In this document: positions 1-7,707 of the stretch, one piece after another
How the letters are laid out: the number at the start of each line of letters is the position of its first letter
Numbering within the stretch: the first letter of the stretch is position 1
NCBI GenBank assembly: GCA_031259645.1
Contig: JAIRLC010000162.1
Span: 1 to 12,770, forward strand
Direction: 5' to 3'
Source: Prevotellaceae bacterium
GTDB lineage: Bacteria; Bacteroidota; Bacteroidia; Bacteroidales; UBA932
DNA: 12,770 bases
Notes under the pieces: generated by a model
Seen by the model: the letters and a program-made list of their open reading frames with translations, nothing else
Database searches by the model: none
What the model was told of the DNA's origin: nothing
Made by a program: the position numbers and the translations under genes

Positions 1-17
1 AAATATTACCTAAATTG

Positions 18-48
18 TTTGGAGTTAACAAAACTAATCGTATCTTTG
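18..48 (+). promoter_or_regulatory. Candidate promoter of the ilv-leu operon (Bacteroidetes type)
   Basis: TATCTTTG at 41-48 matches the Bacteroidetes primary-sigma -7 consensus TAnnTTTG exactly. TTTG at 18-21 matches the -33 element, and the spacing between them is 19 bp, which is the expected distance. Transcription would start near position 53, giving a leader RNA of about 184 nt before ilvD and placing the leader-peptide start codon about 22 nt from the 5' end. The match to consensus and the position upstream of the attenuator both support the call. The exact start site is inferred. Confidence 0.75.
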
Positions 49-74
49 CAGCCGGACTTTTGGAAAATGATGCA

Positions 75-146
75 ATGATTACTATTCATATCCTTTCTAT
101 TTTGGTTTCTGTCATTCACGTCGTGGTCTTGTGCCCATTTACGTGA
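75..146 (+). CDS. Ile/Leu/Val-rich attenuator leader peptide, 23 aa
   Basis: A 23-codon reading frame from ATG (75) to TGA (144-146). Residues 2, 4, 6, 9 and 14 are Ile; 7, 10 and 19 are Leu; 11, 13, 16, 17 and 18 are Val. That is 13 of 22 residues after Met, ending in a Val-Val-Val-Leu run. Such a peptide would not be expected as a functional protein. It acts as a sensor: low charged Ile-, Leu- or Val-tRNA stalls the translating ribosome. It lies between a promoter and a terminator hairpin directly upstream of the branched-chain biosynthetic operon, and the stop codon abuts RNA segment 2 of the attenuator. There is no strong Shine-Dalgarno, which is normal for this phylum. The start could be disputed because ATGs at 67 and 70 open only a 2-3 codon frame whose TGA overlaps this ATG. 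Confidence 0.85.
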   Translation: MITIHILSILVSVIHVVVLCPFT

Positions 147-214
147 GAAAGGTATGTGTGTAGTTTAGTTGTACGAAATAAAGCCTTTCTCTAACAAATA
201 GAGAGAGGTTTTTT
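87..214 (+). promoter_or_regulatory. Ribosome-mediated transcription attenuator of the ilv-leu operon
   Basis: Four segments form competing stems. Segment 1 is 87-98 (CATATCCTTTCT) and segment 2 is 145-156; they pair as CATA/TATG plus CCTTTCT/AGAAAGG, 11 bp with one bulged T at 91. Segment 2 (GAGAAAGG, 145-152) also pairs perfectly with segment 3 (CCTTTCTC, 184-191), forming an antiterminator. Segment 3 (184-192) pairs with segment 4 (200-208) in the terminator hairpin. Expected logic: a ribosome stalled on the Ile/Leu/Val codons (78-131) masks segment 1 or stays short of segment 2, so 2:3 forms and RNA polymerase reads into ilvD. A ribosome that reaches the stop codon covers segment 2, so 3:4 terminates. 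Without translation, 1:2 forms and 3:4 also terminates. The pairings are read directly from sequence; the mechanism is inferred from classical enterobacterial attenuators. Confidence 0.85.
184..214 (+). terminator. Attenuator terminator hairpin
   Basis: CCTTTCTCT (184-192) pairs with AGAGAGAGG (200-208) over 9 bp, including one U-G wobble, around a 7-nt loop (193-199). The stem is followed immediately by six T residues (209-214). This is a textbook intrinsic terminator placed 22 nt before the ilvD start codon. That position makes sense only as a conditional terminator. The 5' half of the stem is the segment sequestered by 145-152 in the antiterminated form. CTAAC (191-195) and GTTAG (215-219) give a further weak outer pairing. 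Confidence 0.85.
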
Positions 215-236
215 GTTAGGATTAAAGTGGTAAACT

Positions 237-2069
237 ATGGAATTACGCAGTTCGATTTGTATGCAGGGACGCCGTATGGCCGGGGCAAGGTCATTGTGGA
301 AAGCCAACGGGATGAAAAAGGAACAAATAGGTAAACCGGTCATAGCCGTTGTAAATTCGTTTACGCAATTTGTGCCGGGGCATGTCCATCTGCATGAGGC
401 CGGCCAGTTGGTGAAAGCCGAAATTGAAAAGCTTGGTTGCTTTGCGGCGGAGTTTAACACCATCGCCATAGATGACGGCATTGCCATGGGGCATGACGGT
501 ATGCTTTATTCGCTGCCTTCGCGCGAATTGATTGCGGATAGCGTGGAATATATGGTTAATGCGCATAAGGCAGATGCCATGGTTTGCATAAGTAATTGCG
601 ATAAGATTACGCCTGGGATGCTCATGGCCGCCATGCGCCTCAACATACCTGCCGTTTTTGTTTCCGGCGGGCCTATGGAGGCCGGAACGTGGGGCGGGCA
701 GCACCTCGACTTGATTGACGCCATGATTAAATCGGCCGACCAGTCGGTGAGTGACGAGGAGGTTGCCGGCATAGAGGAACATGCCTGCCCGACGTGTGGT
801 AGCTGTTCCGGTATGTTTACCGCCAATTCGATGAACTGCCTGAATGAAGCAATCGGTATGGCTTTGCCCGGCAACGGAACGGTTGTCGCCACGCACGAGA
901 ACCGCCTGCGCTTGTTCCGCGATGCGGCTAAACGGATTGTTGACAATGCCTGCAAATATTACAGGGACGACGACACGTCTGTGTTACCGTTAAGCATTGC
1001 AACCCGCGAGGCCTTTCTTAACGCCATGACCCTTGATATTGCAATGGGTGGCTCTACAAATACTGTCCTTCATCTGTTGGCCATCGCGAATGAGGCGGGC
1101 GTCGCTTTTACCATGGACGATATTGATTCCCTGTCGCGCCGGACGCCATGCCTGTGCAAGGTTGCGCCTAATACGCAGAAGTACCACATACAAGACGTCA
1201 ATAGGGCAGGGGGCGTGCTTGCCATTATGCGCGAACTGGCAAAAGGCGAATTGCTCGACACGTCGGTAAAGCGCGTGGATGGCCTGACGCTTGGCCAGGC
1301 TATCGAAAAGTACGATATTATGAATCCTGCCGTTTCGGGCGAGGTCTTGAACATATACCAAAGTGCGCCGGCCGGAACGTTTAACTTAGTCATGGGGTCG
1401 CAGGCAACTTGCTATGACTCGCTTGATAAAGACCGCACGGCCGGATGTATTCGCGATATGGCGCATGCTTATTCAAAAGACGGCGGCCTTGCCGTATTGA
1501 AAGGCAACATTGCGCTTGACGGATGTGTTGTAAAGACGGCGGGCGTTGATGAAAGTATATGGCGTTTCAGCGGCCCTGCCAAGGTTTTCCATTCGCAGGA
1601 AGACGCCTGTGCCGGTATTTTAGACGGAAAGGTTTGCCACGGAGATGTCGTTGTCATAACCTACGAGGGGCCGAAGGGAGGGCCTGGGATGCAGGAAATG
1701 CTTTACCCCACCTCCTACATAAAATCAATGCACCTTGGTGCGGCATGTGCGCTTATAACCGACGGGCGCTTCAGCGGGGGAACGTCGGGCTTAAGCATAG
1801 GGCATGTGTCGCCCGAAGCGGCTTCCGGCGGCGCCATTGGCCTCGTGAAGGACGGAGATGTGATAGAAATAGATATCCCCGCAAGAGCGATAAATGTGAA
1901 GTTGAGCGACGGGGAACTTGCTTCTCGCCGGGCAGCGGAGGAAGGAAAAGGGAAAAACGCATGGAAGCCTGTTCGTGACAGAAACGTATCTAAAGCGCTA
2001 CAGGCGTACGCAAAAATGGTAACCTCTGCTGATAAGGGAGGAGTGAGGGAGTTAAAAATTGAAAACTGA
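237..2069 (+). CDS. ilvD: Dihydroxy-acid dehydratase
   Basis: Converts 2,3-dihydroxyisovalerate and 2,3-dihydroxy-3-methylvalerate to the 2-keto acids that become valine and isoleucine. It is a cytosolic Fe-S enzyme of the IlvD/Edd family. The protein is 610 aa, close to the roughly 616 aa of E. coli IlvD, and similar end to end. Visible signatures are GRRMAGAR (11-18), [15 protein letters not shown] (38-52), [19 protein letters not shown] (79-97), [12 protein letters not shown] with Cys121 (117-128) and [17 protein letters not shown] (184-200), whose cysteines are cluster-ligand candidates. The C-terminus ends in the family-typical TSADKG stretch plus nine residues. The start at 237 matches the family N-terminus in length; Met9 is an alternative. 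It is the first gene of the operon, 22 nt behind the attenuator terminator, and 33 nt before ilvB. Confidence 0.97.
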
Positions 2070-2070
2070 A

Positions 2071-2120
2071 AGTTAAGAATTAAAAATCAAGAGTTAAGAA
2101 TTATGAATTATGAGTTATGT
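2071..2120 (+). repeat. Short AT-rich direct repeats at the ilvD-ilvB junction
   Basis: AGTTAAGAATTA occurs at 2071-2082 and again at 2092-2103, 21 nt apart. It runs into three tandem heptamers: AATTATG (2100-2106), AATTATG (2107-2113) and AGTTATG (2114-2120). Each heptamer carries an ATG (2103, 2110 and 2117), and because the period is 7 nt these fall in three different reading frames. Only the ATG at 2103 is in frame with ilvB. Similar runs (CTAAGAACTAAGAG) occur after leuA near 6861. I recognise this style from Bacteroidetes intergenic regions but cannot assign it to a named repeat family. Confidence 0.7.
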
Positions 2121-3848
2121 GCTCCTCCTTCTTTGGATGGGGCAGGGGGGAGGCCGACAGGGGAGAGGTTGATTACCGGTTCGGAAGCTTTGCTTCGCAC
2201 GTTGATTGCAGAGGGGGTGGAGTGTGTCTTTGGTTATCCCGGGGGACAGGCAATTCCGATATATGATATACTGTACGATTATAAGGATAAATTACGCCAT
2301 GTGCTGGTGCGTCACGAACAGGGGGCGACACATGCCGCCCAGGGTTATGCCAGGGTTAGCGGCAAAGTGGGTGTGGCGCTGGTAACTTCGGGGCCGGGCG
2401 CTACCAATACGGTTACGGGTATAGCCGATGCAATGCTCGACAGTACGCCAATGGTGGTTGTTACCGGACAGGTGCCCTCGCCGTTGCTGGGAACAGACGC
2501 CTTTCAGGAAGTGGATGTGATAGGCATCACACTTCCGATAACGAAGTGGGCATATCAGGTGCGGCATGCCGGAGATGTGGCATGGGCGGTGTCGCGCGCC
2601 TTTTATATTGCCTCCACCGGACGTCCGGGGCCTGTGGTCATCGACATCGCCAAAGATGCGCAGTTGGAACGGATCGATTATTCCTATAAGCCGGTTAATT
2701 TCATCCGAAGTTATCAGCCGTGGCCGGACCTCAACCATGAACGTATTGAAAAGGCTGCGGAATTAATCAACAATGCCGAAAGGCCTTTTGCGCTTGTCGG
2801 GCAGGGCGTCACGCTGAGTGGCGCGGAGAAGGAACTGAAGTGCTTTCTGGACAAGGCGGATGTGCCCGCGGGCTCTACTATGCTGGGCTTGTCGGCAATG
2901 CCCTCCGATTACCGCCTGAATAAGGGTATGTTGGGCATGCATGGCAACATCGGCCCTAACCGCAAGACGAACGAGTGCGACGTGCTTATTGCCATCGGCA
3001 TGCGTTTTGACGACCGTGTTACGGGCAACCCCAACACTTACGCAAAGCAGGCTAAAATCATACATCTTGACCTTGATAATTCCGAATTTGACAAAAATGT
3101 GAAGGTCGATGTGAAGGTGCTGGGAGATGCCAAAGCGTCGTTGCGGGAGATTACTAAACTGCTGAAACCGGCTACGCATAAGGAATGGATAGCATCGTTT
3201 ACACCGGCTGAGGAAGAAGAATACGAGAAAGTCATAAAGAAAGAACTGTGCCCCGGCGACGCCGTTTTACACATGGGCGAGATTGTCCGTAAAGTCTCGG
3301 AAGCTACCGGGAACAAGGCTGTTCTTGTTACGGATGTGGGGCAAAACCAGATGATGAGCGTGCGTTATTTTAAATACAGCCAAACGAGAAGTGTCATTAC
3401 GTCCGGCGGGCTTGGAACGATGGGCTTTGGCCTTCCGGCCTCCATTGGCGCCAAGATGGGCGCTCCCGACAGGACGGTTTGCCTTTTCGTCGGCGATGGG
3501 GGGCTGCAAATGACCATGCAGGAATTAGGCACAATCATGCAGGAAAAATTGGACATTAAAATCATTCTTTTAAATAATAACTACCTTGGCATGGTACGCC
3601 AGTGGCAGGAGTTATTTTTTCACAAACGCTATTCCTGTACGAACATGGAAAATCCGGATTTTACGGCTATAGCGAAAGCTTTCAAGATAGGCGCACGGGA
3701 AGTATGGAAACGCGAAGAATTGGATCACGCGATACAAGAAATGCTGGATTATAAAGGCTCGTTCCTTTTAGTTGCACACGTGGAAGAGAGCGGCAAGGTT
3801 TACCCTATGGTTCCTGCCGGAGGCAGTATTACGGAAATGCTTTATTGA
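2103..3848 (+). CDS. ilvB: Acetolactate synthase, large (catalytic) subunit
   Basis: Thiamine-diphosphate enzyme that condenses pyruvate with pyruvate or 2-ketobutyrate to give acetolactate or acetohydroxybutyrate, the first common step of Val/Leu and Ile synthesis. Landmarks are FGYPGGQAIPIYD (43-55), the catalytic Glu in RHEQGA (Glu72), GMRFDDRVTG of the central domain (299-308), and the ThDP-binding GDG (464-466) to NNNYLGMVRQWQ (491-502). The length of 581 aa includes about 22 extra N-terminal residues before the usual start around LITGSEALLRTL. This extension is translated from short repeats and a G-rich hairpin and has no family resemblance. An in-frame TTG at 2169, behind the purine-rich AGGGGAGAGG, could be the ancestral or real start, but 2103 is the only ATG nearby in this frame. 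The small subunit ilvN follows after 24 nt. Confidence 0.95.
   Translation: MNYELCAPPSLDGAGGRPTGERLITGSEALLRTLIAEGVECVFGYPGGQAIPIYDILYDYKDKLRHVLVRHEQGATHAAQGYARVSGKVGVALVTSGPGATNTVTGIADAMLDSTPMVVVTGQVPSPLLGTDAFQEVDVIGITLPITKWAYQVRHAGDVAWAVSRAFYIASTGRPGPVVIDIAKDAQLERIDYSYKPVNFIRSYQPWPDLNHERIEKAAELINNAERPFALVGQGVTLSGAEKELKCFLDKADVPAGSTMLGLSAMPSDYRLNKGMLGMHGNIGPNRKTNECDVLIAIGMRFDDRVTGNPNTYAKQAKIIHLDLDNSEFDKNVKVDVKVLGDAKASLREITKLLKPATHKEWIASFTPAEEEEYEKVIKKELCPGDAVLHMGEIVRKVSEATGNKAVLVTDVGQNQMMSVRYFKYSQTRSVITSGGLGTMGFGLPASIGAKMGAPDRTVCLFVGDGGLQMTMQELGTIMQEKLDIKIILLNNNYLGMVRQWQELFFHKRYSCTNMENPDFTAIAKAFKIGAREVWKREELDHAIQEMLDYKGSFLLVAHVEESGKVYPMVPAGGSITEMLY
2124..2153 (+). repeat. G-rich imperfect hairpin inside the 5' end of ilvB
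   Basis: CCTCCTTCT (2124-2132) can pair with GGGGGGAGG (2145-2153), with three G-U wobbles and a 12-nt loop. The segment lies just after the heptamer repeats and encodes the Pro/Gly-rich, non-conserved N-terminal extension of IlvB (residues 8-17). It looks like a small interspersed palindromic element captured by the reading frame. Whether it is repeated elsewhere in the genome cannot be seen from this window. Confidence 0.4.
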
Positions 3849-3872: not shown

Positions 3873-4196
3873 ATGAATATGGAGAATAAAACGCTTTTTA
3901 CCATTATCATTTTTTCGGAAAACATGGTAGGTCTGCTTAATCAGATTACGATTATATTTACCCGCCGGCAATTGAACATAGAGACGCTTTTCGTGTCGCC
4001 TTCGACCATTGCCGGGATTCATAAGTTTACCATTACAGCCTTTGCCGACGAAGTAACCATCGAGAAAGTCGTTAAGCAACTCGACAAGCGCGTGGACATC
4101 TTGAAGGCGTATTATAACACGGATGAAGAGCTGGCACAACAGGAAATTAACAATATAATATTAACATATAAAACTAAAGGCTATGGCAACGATTAA
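3873..4196 (+). CDS. ilvN: Acetolactate synthase small (regulatory) subunit, short form
   Basis: The ACT-domain subunit that activates the large subunit and confers valine feedback inhibition. Residues 7-80 read as one ACT domain: TLFTIIIFSENMVGLLNQ (7-24), FTRRQLNIETLFVSPS (29-44), then IHKFTITAF and a helix with VVKQLDKRVDILKAYY. The protein is 107 aa. Small subunits of other Bacteroidales, as I recall them, are about 185 aa with a second C-terminal domain, which is absent here. E. coli IlvN (96 aa) shows that a single ACT domain can suffice. The last dozen codons are AT-rich and run 14 nt into ilvC, as expected if the 3' part was deleted and the frame now ends by chance. A second start at 3879 (MENKTLF) is equally plausible. 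Confidence 0.92.
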   Translation: MNMENKTLFTIIIFSENMVGLLNQITIIFTRRQLNIETLFVSPSTIAGIHKFTITAFADEVTIEKVVKQLDKRVDILKAYYNTDEELAQQEINNIILTYKTKGYGND

Positions 4197-5226
4197 TTTT
4201 GGCGGGGTAAACGAAAACGTGGTTACCCGCGAAGAATTTTCCTTAGAAAAAGCGAAAGAAGTGATGAAAAACGAAACAATCGCAGTTATCGGATACGGCG
4301 TACAGGGTCCCGGGCAGAGCCTGAACCTGCGCGATAACGGTTTTAACGTTATCGTGGGACAGCGCAAAGGCAAAACGTGGGAGAAAGCAGTGTCTGACGG
4401 GTGGGTGCCCGGCGAAACACTGTTTGAAATTGAAGAGGCCTGCAAACGCGCCACCGTCATCCAGTATCTGCTATCAGACGCCGCTCAGATAGCGCTTTGG
4501 CCGGTTGTTCAAAAACACCTTACGGCGGGGAAAGCCTTGTACTTTTCGCATGGCTTCGCTATCACGTACAAGGAGCGCACAAACATCATTCCCCCTGCCG
4601 GTGTGGACGTAATACTGGTAGCCCCGAAGGGCTCTGGCACGTCCCTGCGCCGCATGTTTTTGCAGGGACGCGGGCTTAACTCGTCCTATGCCGTCTATCA
4701 GGATGCGACAGGCCGCGCAACAGAACGCGTGATTGCCCTGGGCATAGGCGTGGGGTCGGGCTATTTGTTCGAAACCACATTCCTGAAAGAAGTCTATTCG
4801 GACTTGACGGGCGAGCGCGGCACGTTAATGGGCGCCATACAGGGGATTTTGCTTGCGCAGTATGAAGTATTACGCGAAAACGGACATTCTCCGTCGGAAG
4901 CGTTTAATGAAACGGTGGAAGAATTGACGCAATCGCTCATGCCCCTGTTTGCGGAAAACGGGATGGACTGGATGTATGCCAACTGCTCAACTACGGCGCA
5001 GCGTGGCGCATTAGACTGGATGGGACCGTTTCATAACGTCACCAAACCTGTGTTTGAAAAACTTTATCAGGAAGTGGCAAACGGAAACGAAGCGCAACGC
5101 TCAATCGACTCAAATTCCCAACCCGACTATCGCGAAAAACTGAATGAGGAACTGGCCGCTTTGCGCAACAGCGAGATGTGGCGTACCGGCGCAACAGTCC
5201 GCAAACTTCGCCCGGAGAACAATTAA
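4183..5226 (+). CDS. ilvC: Ketol-acid reductoisomerase
   Basis: Isomerises and reduces acetolactate or acetohydroxybutyrate to the dihydroxy acids used by IlvD, with NAD(P)H and Mg2+. The protein is 347 aa. The N-terminal Rossmann domain shows [17 protein letters not shown] (37-53), with a basic cofactor loop GQRKGKTW (59-66) that suggests NADPH use. The catalytic His is in FSHGFAI (His123). The knotted C-terminal domain carries the metal ligands Asp207 and Glu211 (DLTGERG) and Glu243/Glu247 (FNETVEE), then [15 protein letters not shown]. The GPGQ in place of GHAQ/GSAQ and the overall length resemble the Bacteroidetes variant. The start codon lies inside the end of ilvN (14-nt overlap), suggesting translational coupling. 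leuA follows after 1 nt. Confidence 0.96.
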
Positions 5227-5227
5227 G

Positions 5228-6721
5228 ATGGACAGGTTATTTATTTTTGACACTACATTGCGCGACGGCGAACAGGTTCCCGGATGCCAGCTTAACACCG
5301 TAGAAAAAATACAGGTGGCGAAAGCGCTCGAATTATTGGGCGTGGATGTTATCGAGGCCGGATTTCCGGTGTCCAGCCCGGGAGATTTCAACTCGGTGGT
5401 TGAGATTTCGAAAGCCGTGACATGGCCCACGGTGTGCGCCCTCACACGCGGCGTGGAGAAAGACATTGAGGTGGCCGCCGAAGCGCTCAAATACGCAAAA
5501 CGCAAACGTATTCACACGGGAATAGGAACGTCGGAGCATCACATAAAATACAAATTTAATGCTACGCAGGAAGAAATCCTGAAACGTGCTGTGGCGGCGA
5601 CGAAATACGCCAAGAAATATGTGGAAGATGTGGAGTTCTACTGCGAGGACGCCGGCCGCACCGAAAACGAATACCTCGCGCGCGTGGTCGAAGCGGTGAT
5701 AAAAGCCGGCGCCACAGTCGTGAATATTCCCGACACGACGGGCTATTGCCTGCCGGCGGAGTTTGGCGCCAAAATCAAATACCTCATGGAGCACGTGAAC
5801 GGTATTGATAAAGCGATTATCTCCACGCATTGCCACAACGACCTCGGCATGGCTACGGCCAACACGATTGCCGGCATAGTAAACGGCGCGCGGCAGGCGG
5901 AGCTAACGATTAACGGAATAGGTGAACGCGCCGGAAACACGTCGCTCGAAGAAGTGGCCATGATTTTGAAATGCCATAAACACCTTGGCGTAGAAACGAA
6001 TATCAATACCCAGAAGATATATTCAACAAGCCGCATGGTATCGAGCTTGATGAACATGCCGGTTCAGCCGAACAAAGCCATCGTAGGCCGCAATGCGTTT
6101 GCCCATTCGTCCGGTATTCATCAGGACGGCGTATTGAAAAACGTACAGACGTATGAGATTATAGACCCGAAAGACGTTGGGATTGATGACAACGCCATTG
6201 TCCTTACGGCGAGAAGTGGGCGCGCTGCGTTGAAACATCACCTGCAAACACTCGGCATAGAGCTTGATCAGGAAAAACTGGATAACGTTTATCAGGAATT
6301 TCTGAAATTGGCCGACCGCAAAAAAGACATACGGGACAACGACATATTGATGCTTGCCGGTGAAGGACGCAAAGCCTCGTTGCGCATCAAACTGGAATAC
6401 CTGCAAGTTACTTCCGGCATTGGCGTACGTCCCGTAGCCAGCGTTTGCCTTAACATTGCCGGGGAGAAATTCGAAGCCGCAGCGTCGGGCAACGGCCCGG
6501 TTGACGCCGCGATAAAAGCGGTTAAAATAATTATACACCGCCAGATGACCATTCAGGAATTTCTCATTCAGGCAATGAACAAAGGCAGCGACGACGTAGG
6601 AAAAGTACACATGCAGGTGGCTTACGACGGAAACGTCTATTACGGCTTTGCGGCCAATACCGACATCGTTGCGGCATCCATTGAAGCCTTTATTGACGCG
6701 CTGAATAAATTTGTGAAATAA
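5228..6721 (+). CDS. leuA: 2-Isopropylmalate synthase
   Basis: Condenses 2-ketoisovalerate with acetyl-CoA, the committed step to leucine. The protein is 497 aa. The TIM-barrel catalytic domain contains [14 protein letters not shown] (7-20) and the metal-binding [13 protein letters not shown] (200-212, His201 and His203), then [13 protein letters not shown] (230-242). After the HSSGIHQDG segment comes the C-terminal domain (about 370-497) that normally binds leucine for feedback inhibition. The start is ATG 5228, 1 nt after the ilvC stop. A longer frame from 5144 adds 28 residues that only duplicate ilvC coding sequence and do not match the family. Homocitrate or citramalate synthases are relatives, but the full-length similarity and operon favour LeuA. 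No leuB, leuC or leuD follows. Confidence 0.95.
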
Positions 6722-6902: not shown

Positions 6903-7286
6903 TTAAAAAATATTCCGCGCAACCCAGTAGAGTATGATAATAAGTAATACGGAAAAGATAAATTTAGTTCCCGATAGTTTCCGGTATAATTTGGGAAAGC
7001 GCTTTTTTCCGCCGAAATACGAGAGGTAAATAAGCAGGAAAACCAGTAATAATACCGGAATGAGCAGCAGATTGTAACAAAAAGCTTGGCGCACGTGCAA
7101 GTGCAGCAGGCTGTGGACAGCACGTTGCGTACCGCAGCCGGGACACTGAAAACCGGTTAATTGGTGAAACAGGCAAGGCGGAAAATAATTATCCTCCGGA
7201 TTAAACGAAAAATATACCCCGCCCAATATTACCATGCAAATAATAATGATACCTGTTTTCTTGTTAGATAGACGGGCAGGGGGCAT
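6903..7286 (-). CDS. DUF2752 family membrane protein
   Basis: Small integral membrane protein of 127 aa with the DUF2752 signature PPCLFHQLTGFQCPGCGTQRA (residues 36-56), including Cys38, Cys48, Cys51 and Arg55. The two CPxCG-type cysteines could bind a metal or form a disulfide. Three hydrophobic segments are visible at about 11-28, 72-91 and 109-125, with the signature in the loop between the first and second. The function of the family is unknown. The start codon (7284-7286) lies 4 nt after the stop of the CD225-type gene, so the two are very probably one transcript. Pairing of these two families seems recurrent in Bacteroidetes from memory. Confidence 0.85.
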   Translation of the reverse strand: MPPARLSNKKTGIIIICMVILGGVYFSFNPEDNYFPPCLFHQLTGFQCPGCGTQRAVHSLLHLHVRQAFCYNLLLIPVLLLVFLLIYLSYFGGKKRFPKLYRKLSGTKFIFSVLLIIILYWVARNIF

Positions 7287-7290
7287 TTAC

Positions 7291-7707
7291 TTAAATGGAG
7301 CTTAAGCCGGCAAAGCCGGCAATTATGCCGCCGATGGCTATAATGTAGATAATATATGCTACATATATGGCAAGACCTGAAGCCAACGCTGCAATACAAA
7401 AGTTCTTGGCATTGTTCGAGGCTCTTTGCGCGGCATCGACATTGCCCTGCGTGTAATATCTTTCTACCTGTGCGGCATAGACTATCGCAGGAATGCCCAG
7501 CGGCAAGCAGCATAAAATAGTTACGACAATCGACTGCCAGAGGTAAGTGTTCGGCATGACGTCGTCTGGTGTTAATGTATATTGCGATGAGGCAGATGCC
7601 GGTGAAGGCGTTGTTCCGGATACGCCGGATTGAATTTCGCATCCGCATTTTGCACAAAAACGCGCATGGTCGGGATTAGGTTCTCCACAGTTTGAACAGT
7701 ATTTCAT
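7291..7707 (-). CDS. Zinc-ribbon and CD225/dispanin-domain membrane protein
   Basis: The protein is 138 aa. The N-terminus is a zinc ribbon with Cys4-x2-Cys7 and Cys18-x2-Cys21 (MKYCSNCGEPNP...RFCAKCG). A Ser/Pro/Thr-rich linker (about 28-50) leads into a CD225-like module: PNTYLWQSIVVTILCCLPLGIPAIVYAAQV (52-81, first membrane segment), a polar loop with YYTQGNVDAAQRASNNAK (84-101), and a second hydrophobic segment (102-134). This is the fold class of eukaryotic IFITM proteins, but bacterial members have no settled role. It heads a two-gene unit with the DUF2752 gene and has its own promoter-like sequence. A role at the membrane is all that can be inferred. Confidence 0.85.
   Translation of the reverse strand: MKYCSNCGEPNPDHARFCAKCGCEIQSGVSGTTPSPASASSQYTLTPDDVMPNTYLWQSIVVTILCCLPLGIPAIVYAAQVERYYTQGNVDAAQRASNNAKNFCIAALASGLAIYVAYIIYIIAIGGIIAGFAGLSSI

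Follow-up and report, generated by a model that had tools for sequence, protein, structure and literature searches.

Attenuators of branched-chain amino acid synthesis are found before the enterobacterial ilvGMEDA and leuABCD operons, with the leaders ilvL and leuL. The locus described here resembles them in having a leader rich in the amino acids of the pathway, competing segments and an intrinsic terminator before the operon, and the Leu codon CTA is in use both in leuL and in the ilvD leaders reported below. Unlike in the enterobacterial systems, ilvD is the first gene and leuA the last, the promoter is of the Bacteroidota type, no Shine-Dalgarno-like site is present (0 of 115 ATG leaders) and segment 2 begins in the stop codon of the leader. 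Bacteroidetes/Chlorobi are reportedly listed by Vitreschak et al. 2004 among the groups with candidate attenuators.

A passage of PMC2965389 states that, in 2010, such systems were known to its authors only in Proteobacteria and Actinobacteria, bar one atypical case. For Corynebacterium glutamicum, PMC11857589 describes hairpins in the regulatory region of the acetolactate synthase operon ilvBNC, as here, and proposes attenuation; phylum and operon are different, and the likeness is one of description. The same holds for Flavobacterium psychrophilum, which belongs to the same phylum as our locus and to a different order: parts of PMC9723704 give clues to leader-peptide attenuation before amino-acid biosynthesis operons, and “ilv” is absent from its main text. 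Short ORFs resembling attenuation leaders are mentioned for B. thetaiotaomicron in a part of PMC7366714. No description of an ilvD attenuator in Bacteroidales was present among the open-licence matches listed, judged by titles and abstract openings, and there seems to be little in print on this mechanism in the group. As judged from sequence comparison, a ribosome-mediated transcription attenuator very probably controls the ilvD-ilvB-ilvN-ilvC-leuA operon studied here. Its kind of mechanism is known; of more interest are how frequent it is across the order and how closely the leaders follow the pathway.

Organization of the region ahead of ilvD

The window, i.e., the whole 12,770-nt stretch of DNA that was analysed, is an entire contig of a draft genome with a completeness of 59.73%. 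The element occupies the left end of the contig (+ strand) and consists of the following parts (basis of each assignment in brackets):

18..21, + strand: promoter -33 box TTTG (sequence)
41..48, + strand: promoter -7 box TATCTTTG (sequence)
75..146, + strand: predicted leader peptide ORF, 23 codons, 13 of them for Ile, Leu or Val (I/L/V) (sequence; recurs in relatives)
87..98, + strand: segment 1, partner of 146-156 (sequence, MFE, swap test over relatives)
145..156, + strand: segment 2, beginning within the leader stop codon; partner of segment 3 by 145-152 and of segment 1 by 146-156 (sequence, shuffles)
180..193, + strand: segment 3, the 5' arm of the terminator; 184-191 pairs with segment 2 (sequence, MFE, swap test)
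199..212, + strand: segment 4, the 3' arm of the terminator (sequence, MFE, relatives)
209..214, + strand: T6 run of the predicted intrinsic terminator (sequence)

The leader ORF runs from ATG (75-77) to TGA (144-146) and encodes the peptide MITIHILSILVSVIHVVVLCPFT, in which 13 of the 23 residues are I/L/V. A short ORF rich in the end products is in this way placed between promoter and operon, and an intrinsic terminator, predicted from sequence and fold, precedes the first structural gene. The promoter boxes are spaced as TTTG-N19-TATCTTTG, in agreement with the Bacteroidota promoter consensus. The 1:2 stem (CATATCCTTTCT, 87-98, with AGAAAGGTATG, 146-156) has 11 bp and one bulge, the 2:3 stem (GAGAAAGG, 145-152, with CCTTTCTC, 184-191) is a perfect helix of 8 bp, and the 3:4 stem (184-192/200-208) has 9 bp including one G-U, followed by T at 209-214. 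In the MFE structure of 60-230, the terminator hairpin grows to 14 bp (180-193/199-212), and 1:2 and 3:4 are present together. A sequence-only reading of the window had described a consensus promoter, a 23-codon leader with 13 Ile/Leu/Val residues, and three stems followed by T6. When read again from the sequence, its coordinates are all borne out to the base, the promoter is Bacteroidota-type, and leader and stems have the sizes claimed. Its view that the three stems are mutually exclusive holds for 1:2 against 2:3 and for 2:3 against 3:4, and fails for 1:2 against 3:4, as these two coexist in the MFE structure.

The ilvD-ilvB-ilvN-ilvC-leuA genes are closely packed behind the element:

237..2069, + strand: ilvD, dihydroxy-acid dehydratase, the first gene past the attenuator (NCBIfam TIGR00110, 794.6 bits, cut-off 618.15)
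2103..3848, + strand: ilvB, acetolactate synthase large subunit (TIGR00118, 676 bits, cut-off 538.35)
3873..4196, + strand: ilvN-like acetolactate synthase small subunit, 107 aa (TIGR00119, 51.2 bits, below the cut-off of 56.9)
4183..5226, + strand: ilvC, ketol-acid reductoisomerase (TIGR00465, 317.2 bits, cut-off 226.15)
5228..6721, + strand: leuA, 2-isopropylmalate synthase (TIGR00973, 666.7 bits, cut-off 598.7)

The ilvN-like gene (3873-4196) is short and has a 14-nt overlap with ilvC. Beside leuA, at 6903-7707 of the window (- strand), Pfam identifies one gene as DUF2752 and one as zinc-ribbon CD225, and ORFs of similar look, judged by eye, are situated near leuA in another locus (L240:1957-2845, - strand).

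The stop of the leader is separated from the start of ilvD by 90 nt, a stretch that contains the terminator. This distance bears on the idea that the short ORF boosts ilvD translation by ribosome reinitiation, without any control of transcription. Reinitiation after leader genes has indeed been proposed, with a Bacteroidetes peak at a distance of 11-14 bp given in a part of PMC4833913; set against the 90 nt and the terminator that separate the two frames here, this explanation is hardly credible.

The combination of leader and terminator was compared with chance in 3000 dinucleotide shuffles of window positions 1-236, asking for an ORF that starts with ATG and has 9 or more I/L/V in 12 codons, and for a terminator of -12 kcal/mol or better. 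Such an ORF arose in 18 shuffles and such a terminator in 22, and the two in order in none of the 3000; chance is excluded as the source of the combination in the window. At -47.1 kcal/mol, the fold of 60-230 is better than every one of 200 shuffles, which average -32.5 (z -4.0), and the 2:3 stem is equalled in 0 of 200 shuffles. The 1:2 stem is not significant in the window alone, because 19 of 100 shuffles contain an ungapped helix that is as good (p 0.19) and the stretch between leader and segment 2, both included, folds with a z of -0.09 against shuffles. Support for this predicted stem comes from relatives, with a swap z of -7.3.

Recurrence and covariation among relatives

In the search for ilvD, a match was found in 47 of 118 relatives and in at least 176 of 393 genomes of the order. 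From a collection of named genomes, the best 80 of at least 595 matches were used, the closest of these being a Tannerella sp. MAG with 91% IlvD identity. The sample of 235 loci is made up of 55 and a further 100 places from the relatives and order searches (a part of all matches) and the 80 named ones. Loci were oriented by the IlvD N-terminal motif, by which 226 were kept and 9 without a motif match left out; three pairs among the 226 are identical over the last 200 upstream bases.

A detector that looked for a terminator and, ahead of it, a short ORF having 7 or more I/L/V in 12 codons was passed by 126 of the 226 ilvD upstream regions (92/149 in the relatives and order set, 34/77 among named genomes) and failed at 100. 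The named set takes in Candidatus Bacteroides merdipullorum, an uncultured Phocaeicola, Phocaeicola faecalis, Heminiphilus faecis, Marinifilum, Labilibaculum and Alistipes. Among the oriented loci, 14 come from records naming other phyla, and none of these passed. Of the 100 failing loci, 28 (one of them from the other-phyla records) have an ORF rich in I/L/V (8 in 12) and no terminator that passes; some of these ORFs are probably due to chance. No attenuator was detected before ilvD in L007, from the window's genus, or in L014, L015, L017 and L019, from its family. Relatives lacking the element had been named by the sequence-only reading as evidence against it; leader and terminator occur together at the 126 passing loci, and the 100 failing ones include L007 of the same genus. 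Compared with L002 and L003, the two closest relatives, the amino-acid changes in the window's leader are mostly conservative (V>I, T>A, T>V). In L156, two Ile codons have changed to Asn and Asp and one Val has been gained.

The promoter recurs as well. TAnnTTTG is present at most 95 nt upstream of the start of 104 of 116 leaders (7.2 expected from mononucleotide shuffles), and is joined by an upstream TTG at about the spacing of the window in 93 of 116 (2.0 expected from such shuffles). The Shine-Dalgarno cores searched for were found before 0 of 115 ATG leaders, and the region before these leaders is A-rich. An A-rich region before starts is usual in Bacteroidota.

A search of the window with Rfam 15 returned no family at the curated gathering score. 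This argues against a riboswitch that directly binds one of the branched-chain amino acids, or a signal like ppGpp, and carries the ORF as a by-product, and so does the nature of the recurring features, which are codons, promoter and complementary segments. A terminator and anti-terminator can also be the output of a riboswitch, and a Veillonella ilvD motif is a weak riboswitch candidate according to a passage of PMC8632094; for the present element, we consider a riboswitch extremely improbable.

Pairings were evaluated in 124 distinct rows. Since shuffles judge each locus alone, a swap test was added, in which own and swapped partners were compared over 98 cluster representatives of these 124 rows with 2000 permutations. 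For 2:3, own partners reach -11.2 versus -8.6 for swapped ones (z -11.6), and for 1:2, -14.7 versus -12.6 (z -7.3), with 0 of 2000 permutations as good in either case. Segment 1 in relatives is often paired to the 3' flank of segment 2, and this pairing has a swap z of -9.3 (98 representatives). The control pairing 1:3 has no own-partner preference over the same representatives (z 0.03), which disfavours a common base composition as the source of the 1:2 and 2:3 signals. Changed 2:3 partner sets include GAGAAAGG/CCTTTCTC, GAGAATGG/CCATTCTC, GGAAGGGCT/AGCCCTTCC and AATCGG/CCGATT.

When compared with 200 dinucleotide shuffles, 2:3 attains p<=0.05 in 79 of the 124 rows and misses it in 45. Of the 79 rows having a good 2:3, 16 contain an ungapped 1:2 helix at p<=0.05. 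Folds spanning leader and segment 2 have a mean z of -1.3 in these 79 rows, and in 77 of them half or more of segment 2 is paired with sequence upstream of it in the MFE structure. Sequence and swap-test covariation both point to 2:3 as an anti-terminator exclusive with the terminator; the putative protector stem 1:2 is recovered over the relatives, and does not go beyond shuffles in the window alone. As had been expected of related genomes, leader codons, promoter and terminator recur upstream of ilvD, and 1:2 and 2:3 covary. The motif CCTTTCT, present in segments 1 and 3 and named by the sequence-only reading as the basis of the choice made by segment 2, is a local identity, not a general one; it is the 1:2 pairing that is conserved in relatives. 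Segment 2 contains AGAAAGG, which is presumably complementary to the 3' tail of 16S rRNA. An action of segment 2 via this tail is disfavoured by its joint variation with segment 3, and also by the mostly different sequences in the hisG and trpE terminators.

Leader codons and proposed mechanism

RNA polymerase would start ~20 nt ahead of the leader. With undelayed translation, a ribosome at the stop codon would cover segment 2, and the 3:4 terminator would form. When charged tRNA for Ile, Leu or Val runs short, the ribosome would stall some codons before the stop, where it would mask segment 1 or stop its closing on segment 2; the free segment 2 would then form 2:3 in place of the terminator, allowing transcription into ilvD. 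In an untranslated leader, 1:2 would form, giving termination by default. In this scheme, we infer where transcription starts, that the genes form an operon, that the ribosome stalls and how much RNA it covers, and that read-through follows.

The composition and geometry of the leaders are consistent with it. The mean I/L/V fraction is 0.57 in frame versus 0.24 and 0.08 in the other frames, over 118 leaders that were selected for in-frame I/L/V. In the same 118 leaders, the frequency of I/L/V falls from 0.75 at the fifth codon from the end to 0.47, 0.38, 0.17 and 0.08 over the final four codons, a drop that would be expected if a stalled ribosome has to leave segment 2 free. Over 124 rows, the median start of segment 2 is 2 nt short of the end of the stop codon, and a ribosome that has reached the stop should therefore cover this segment. 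In the window, the Ile and Leu codons of the leader lie within and around segment 1, and a Val-Val-Val-Leu run (120-131) lies between segments 1 and 2. This run is downstream of segment 1, so a stall at Val would leave segment 1 uncovered. The footprint of a ribosome is ~30 nt; around a ribosome stalled on the Val run, with ~16 free nt left in the loop, 1:2 should be unable to close.

Codon use differs between the leaders and ilvD at the same 63 loci: CTA makes up 21% of Leu codons in leaders versus 3% in ilvD, GTC 53% versus 17% of Val codons, and the share of ATT is 74% versus 41%. This bias may reflect the sensing of particular tRNA isoacceptors. The sensitivity of attenuation to the codon make-up of leaders has been modelled (PMC1183508); the tie to the CTA, GTC and ATT bias is our own.

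Leaders of other amino-acid operons

Uniform criteria over 420 nt were applied to 148 ilvD, 30 hisG, 28 trpE and 20 thrA loci, the last three taken from 39, 40 and 43 places, respectively. I/L/V leaders (9 in 12 codons) precede ilvD at 87 of 148 loci, 71 of them then followed by a terminator, and occur at 1 of the 78 other loci (hisG 1/30, then a terminator; trpE 0/28; thrA 0/20). His-rich leaders are found at 23 of 30 hisG loci (19 with terminator), at no ilvD or trpE locus and at 2 thrA loci (0 with terminator). WWW leaders precede trpE at 18 of 28 loci (17 with terminator) and ilvD, hisG and thrA at none. Phe-rich control ORFs were counted at 21 ilvD, 4 hisG, 6 trpE and 0 thrA loci, with a terminator after 6 of the 31; chance ORFs of the hydrophobic kind thus do arise. 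Leaders with 9 Thr/Ile in 12 are absent from ilvD and hisG and present once before trpE (without terminator). A Thr/Ile attenuator before thrA was discarded, as 0 of 20 regions have such a leader; at 6 Thr/Ile in 12, an ORF is present in 4 of 20 regions and a terminator after 0 of these.

In the swap test, hisG (19 loci) has a z of -4.7 for 1:2 and of -2.8 for 2:3. For trpE (17 loci), 1:2 covaries (z -5.5) and 2:3 does not (z -0.06), the anti-terminator not being recovered by the windows used. Given the weaker hisG and absent trpE 2:3 signal, the full four-segment claim is made for ilvD only.

A different explanation would be a fixed or protein-controlled terminator with an incidental peptide, either limiting ilvD to a constant fraction or responding to a protein on the leader. 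Some ilvD loci with a terminator and no detected leader, or the reverse, would fit this; however, the make-up of the leader tracks the pathway (I/L/V before ilvD, His before hisG and Trp before trpE), and 2:3 covaries although a fixed terminator has no need of it. We regard this explanation as very unlikely. Ribosome-mediated attenuation with the ilv/leu-type logic, as the sequence-only reading had proposed for a Bacteroidetes-like genome, is supported by recurrence, by covariation of 1:2 and 2:3 and by the pathway-specific leaders.

For the order Bacteroidales as a whole, we lean, with some reserve, towards pathway-specific attenuation as a main control of the ilv, his and trp operons, and in one genome or more also of leuA; the leaders would be translated in the absence of Shine-Dalgarno sites, and each operon type would use its own set of complementary segments. 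If true, this would imply a close coupling of transcription and translation in Bacteroidota, which to our knowledge has not been shown so far. The ilvD attenuator predicts how many Bacteroidales adjust their branched-chain amino acid synthesis, and the element would be a ready reporter for whether ribosomes trail RNA polymerase closely in Bacteroidota. The data suggest that short pathway-specific leader peptides are common in this phylum.

A single core common to amino-acid attenuators was rejected, as a looser pattern matched only the window's own site in its genome. The strict core pattern matched 4 places in 3 of 119 genomes. Three of these are ilvD attenuators; the fourth (L240:1549-1641, - strand) is located before leuA in G099 and has a separate Ile/Leu-rich leader and the GAGAAAGG/CCTTTCTC core. 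Upstream of hisG and trpE (L241-L270, L301-L328), short ORFs with a His run (e.g., MIHHHHHGYPFGGR in L248) or WWW were also seen ahead of terminators in many of the Bacteroidales that were examined.
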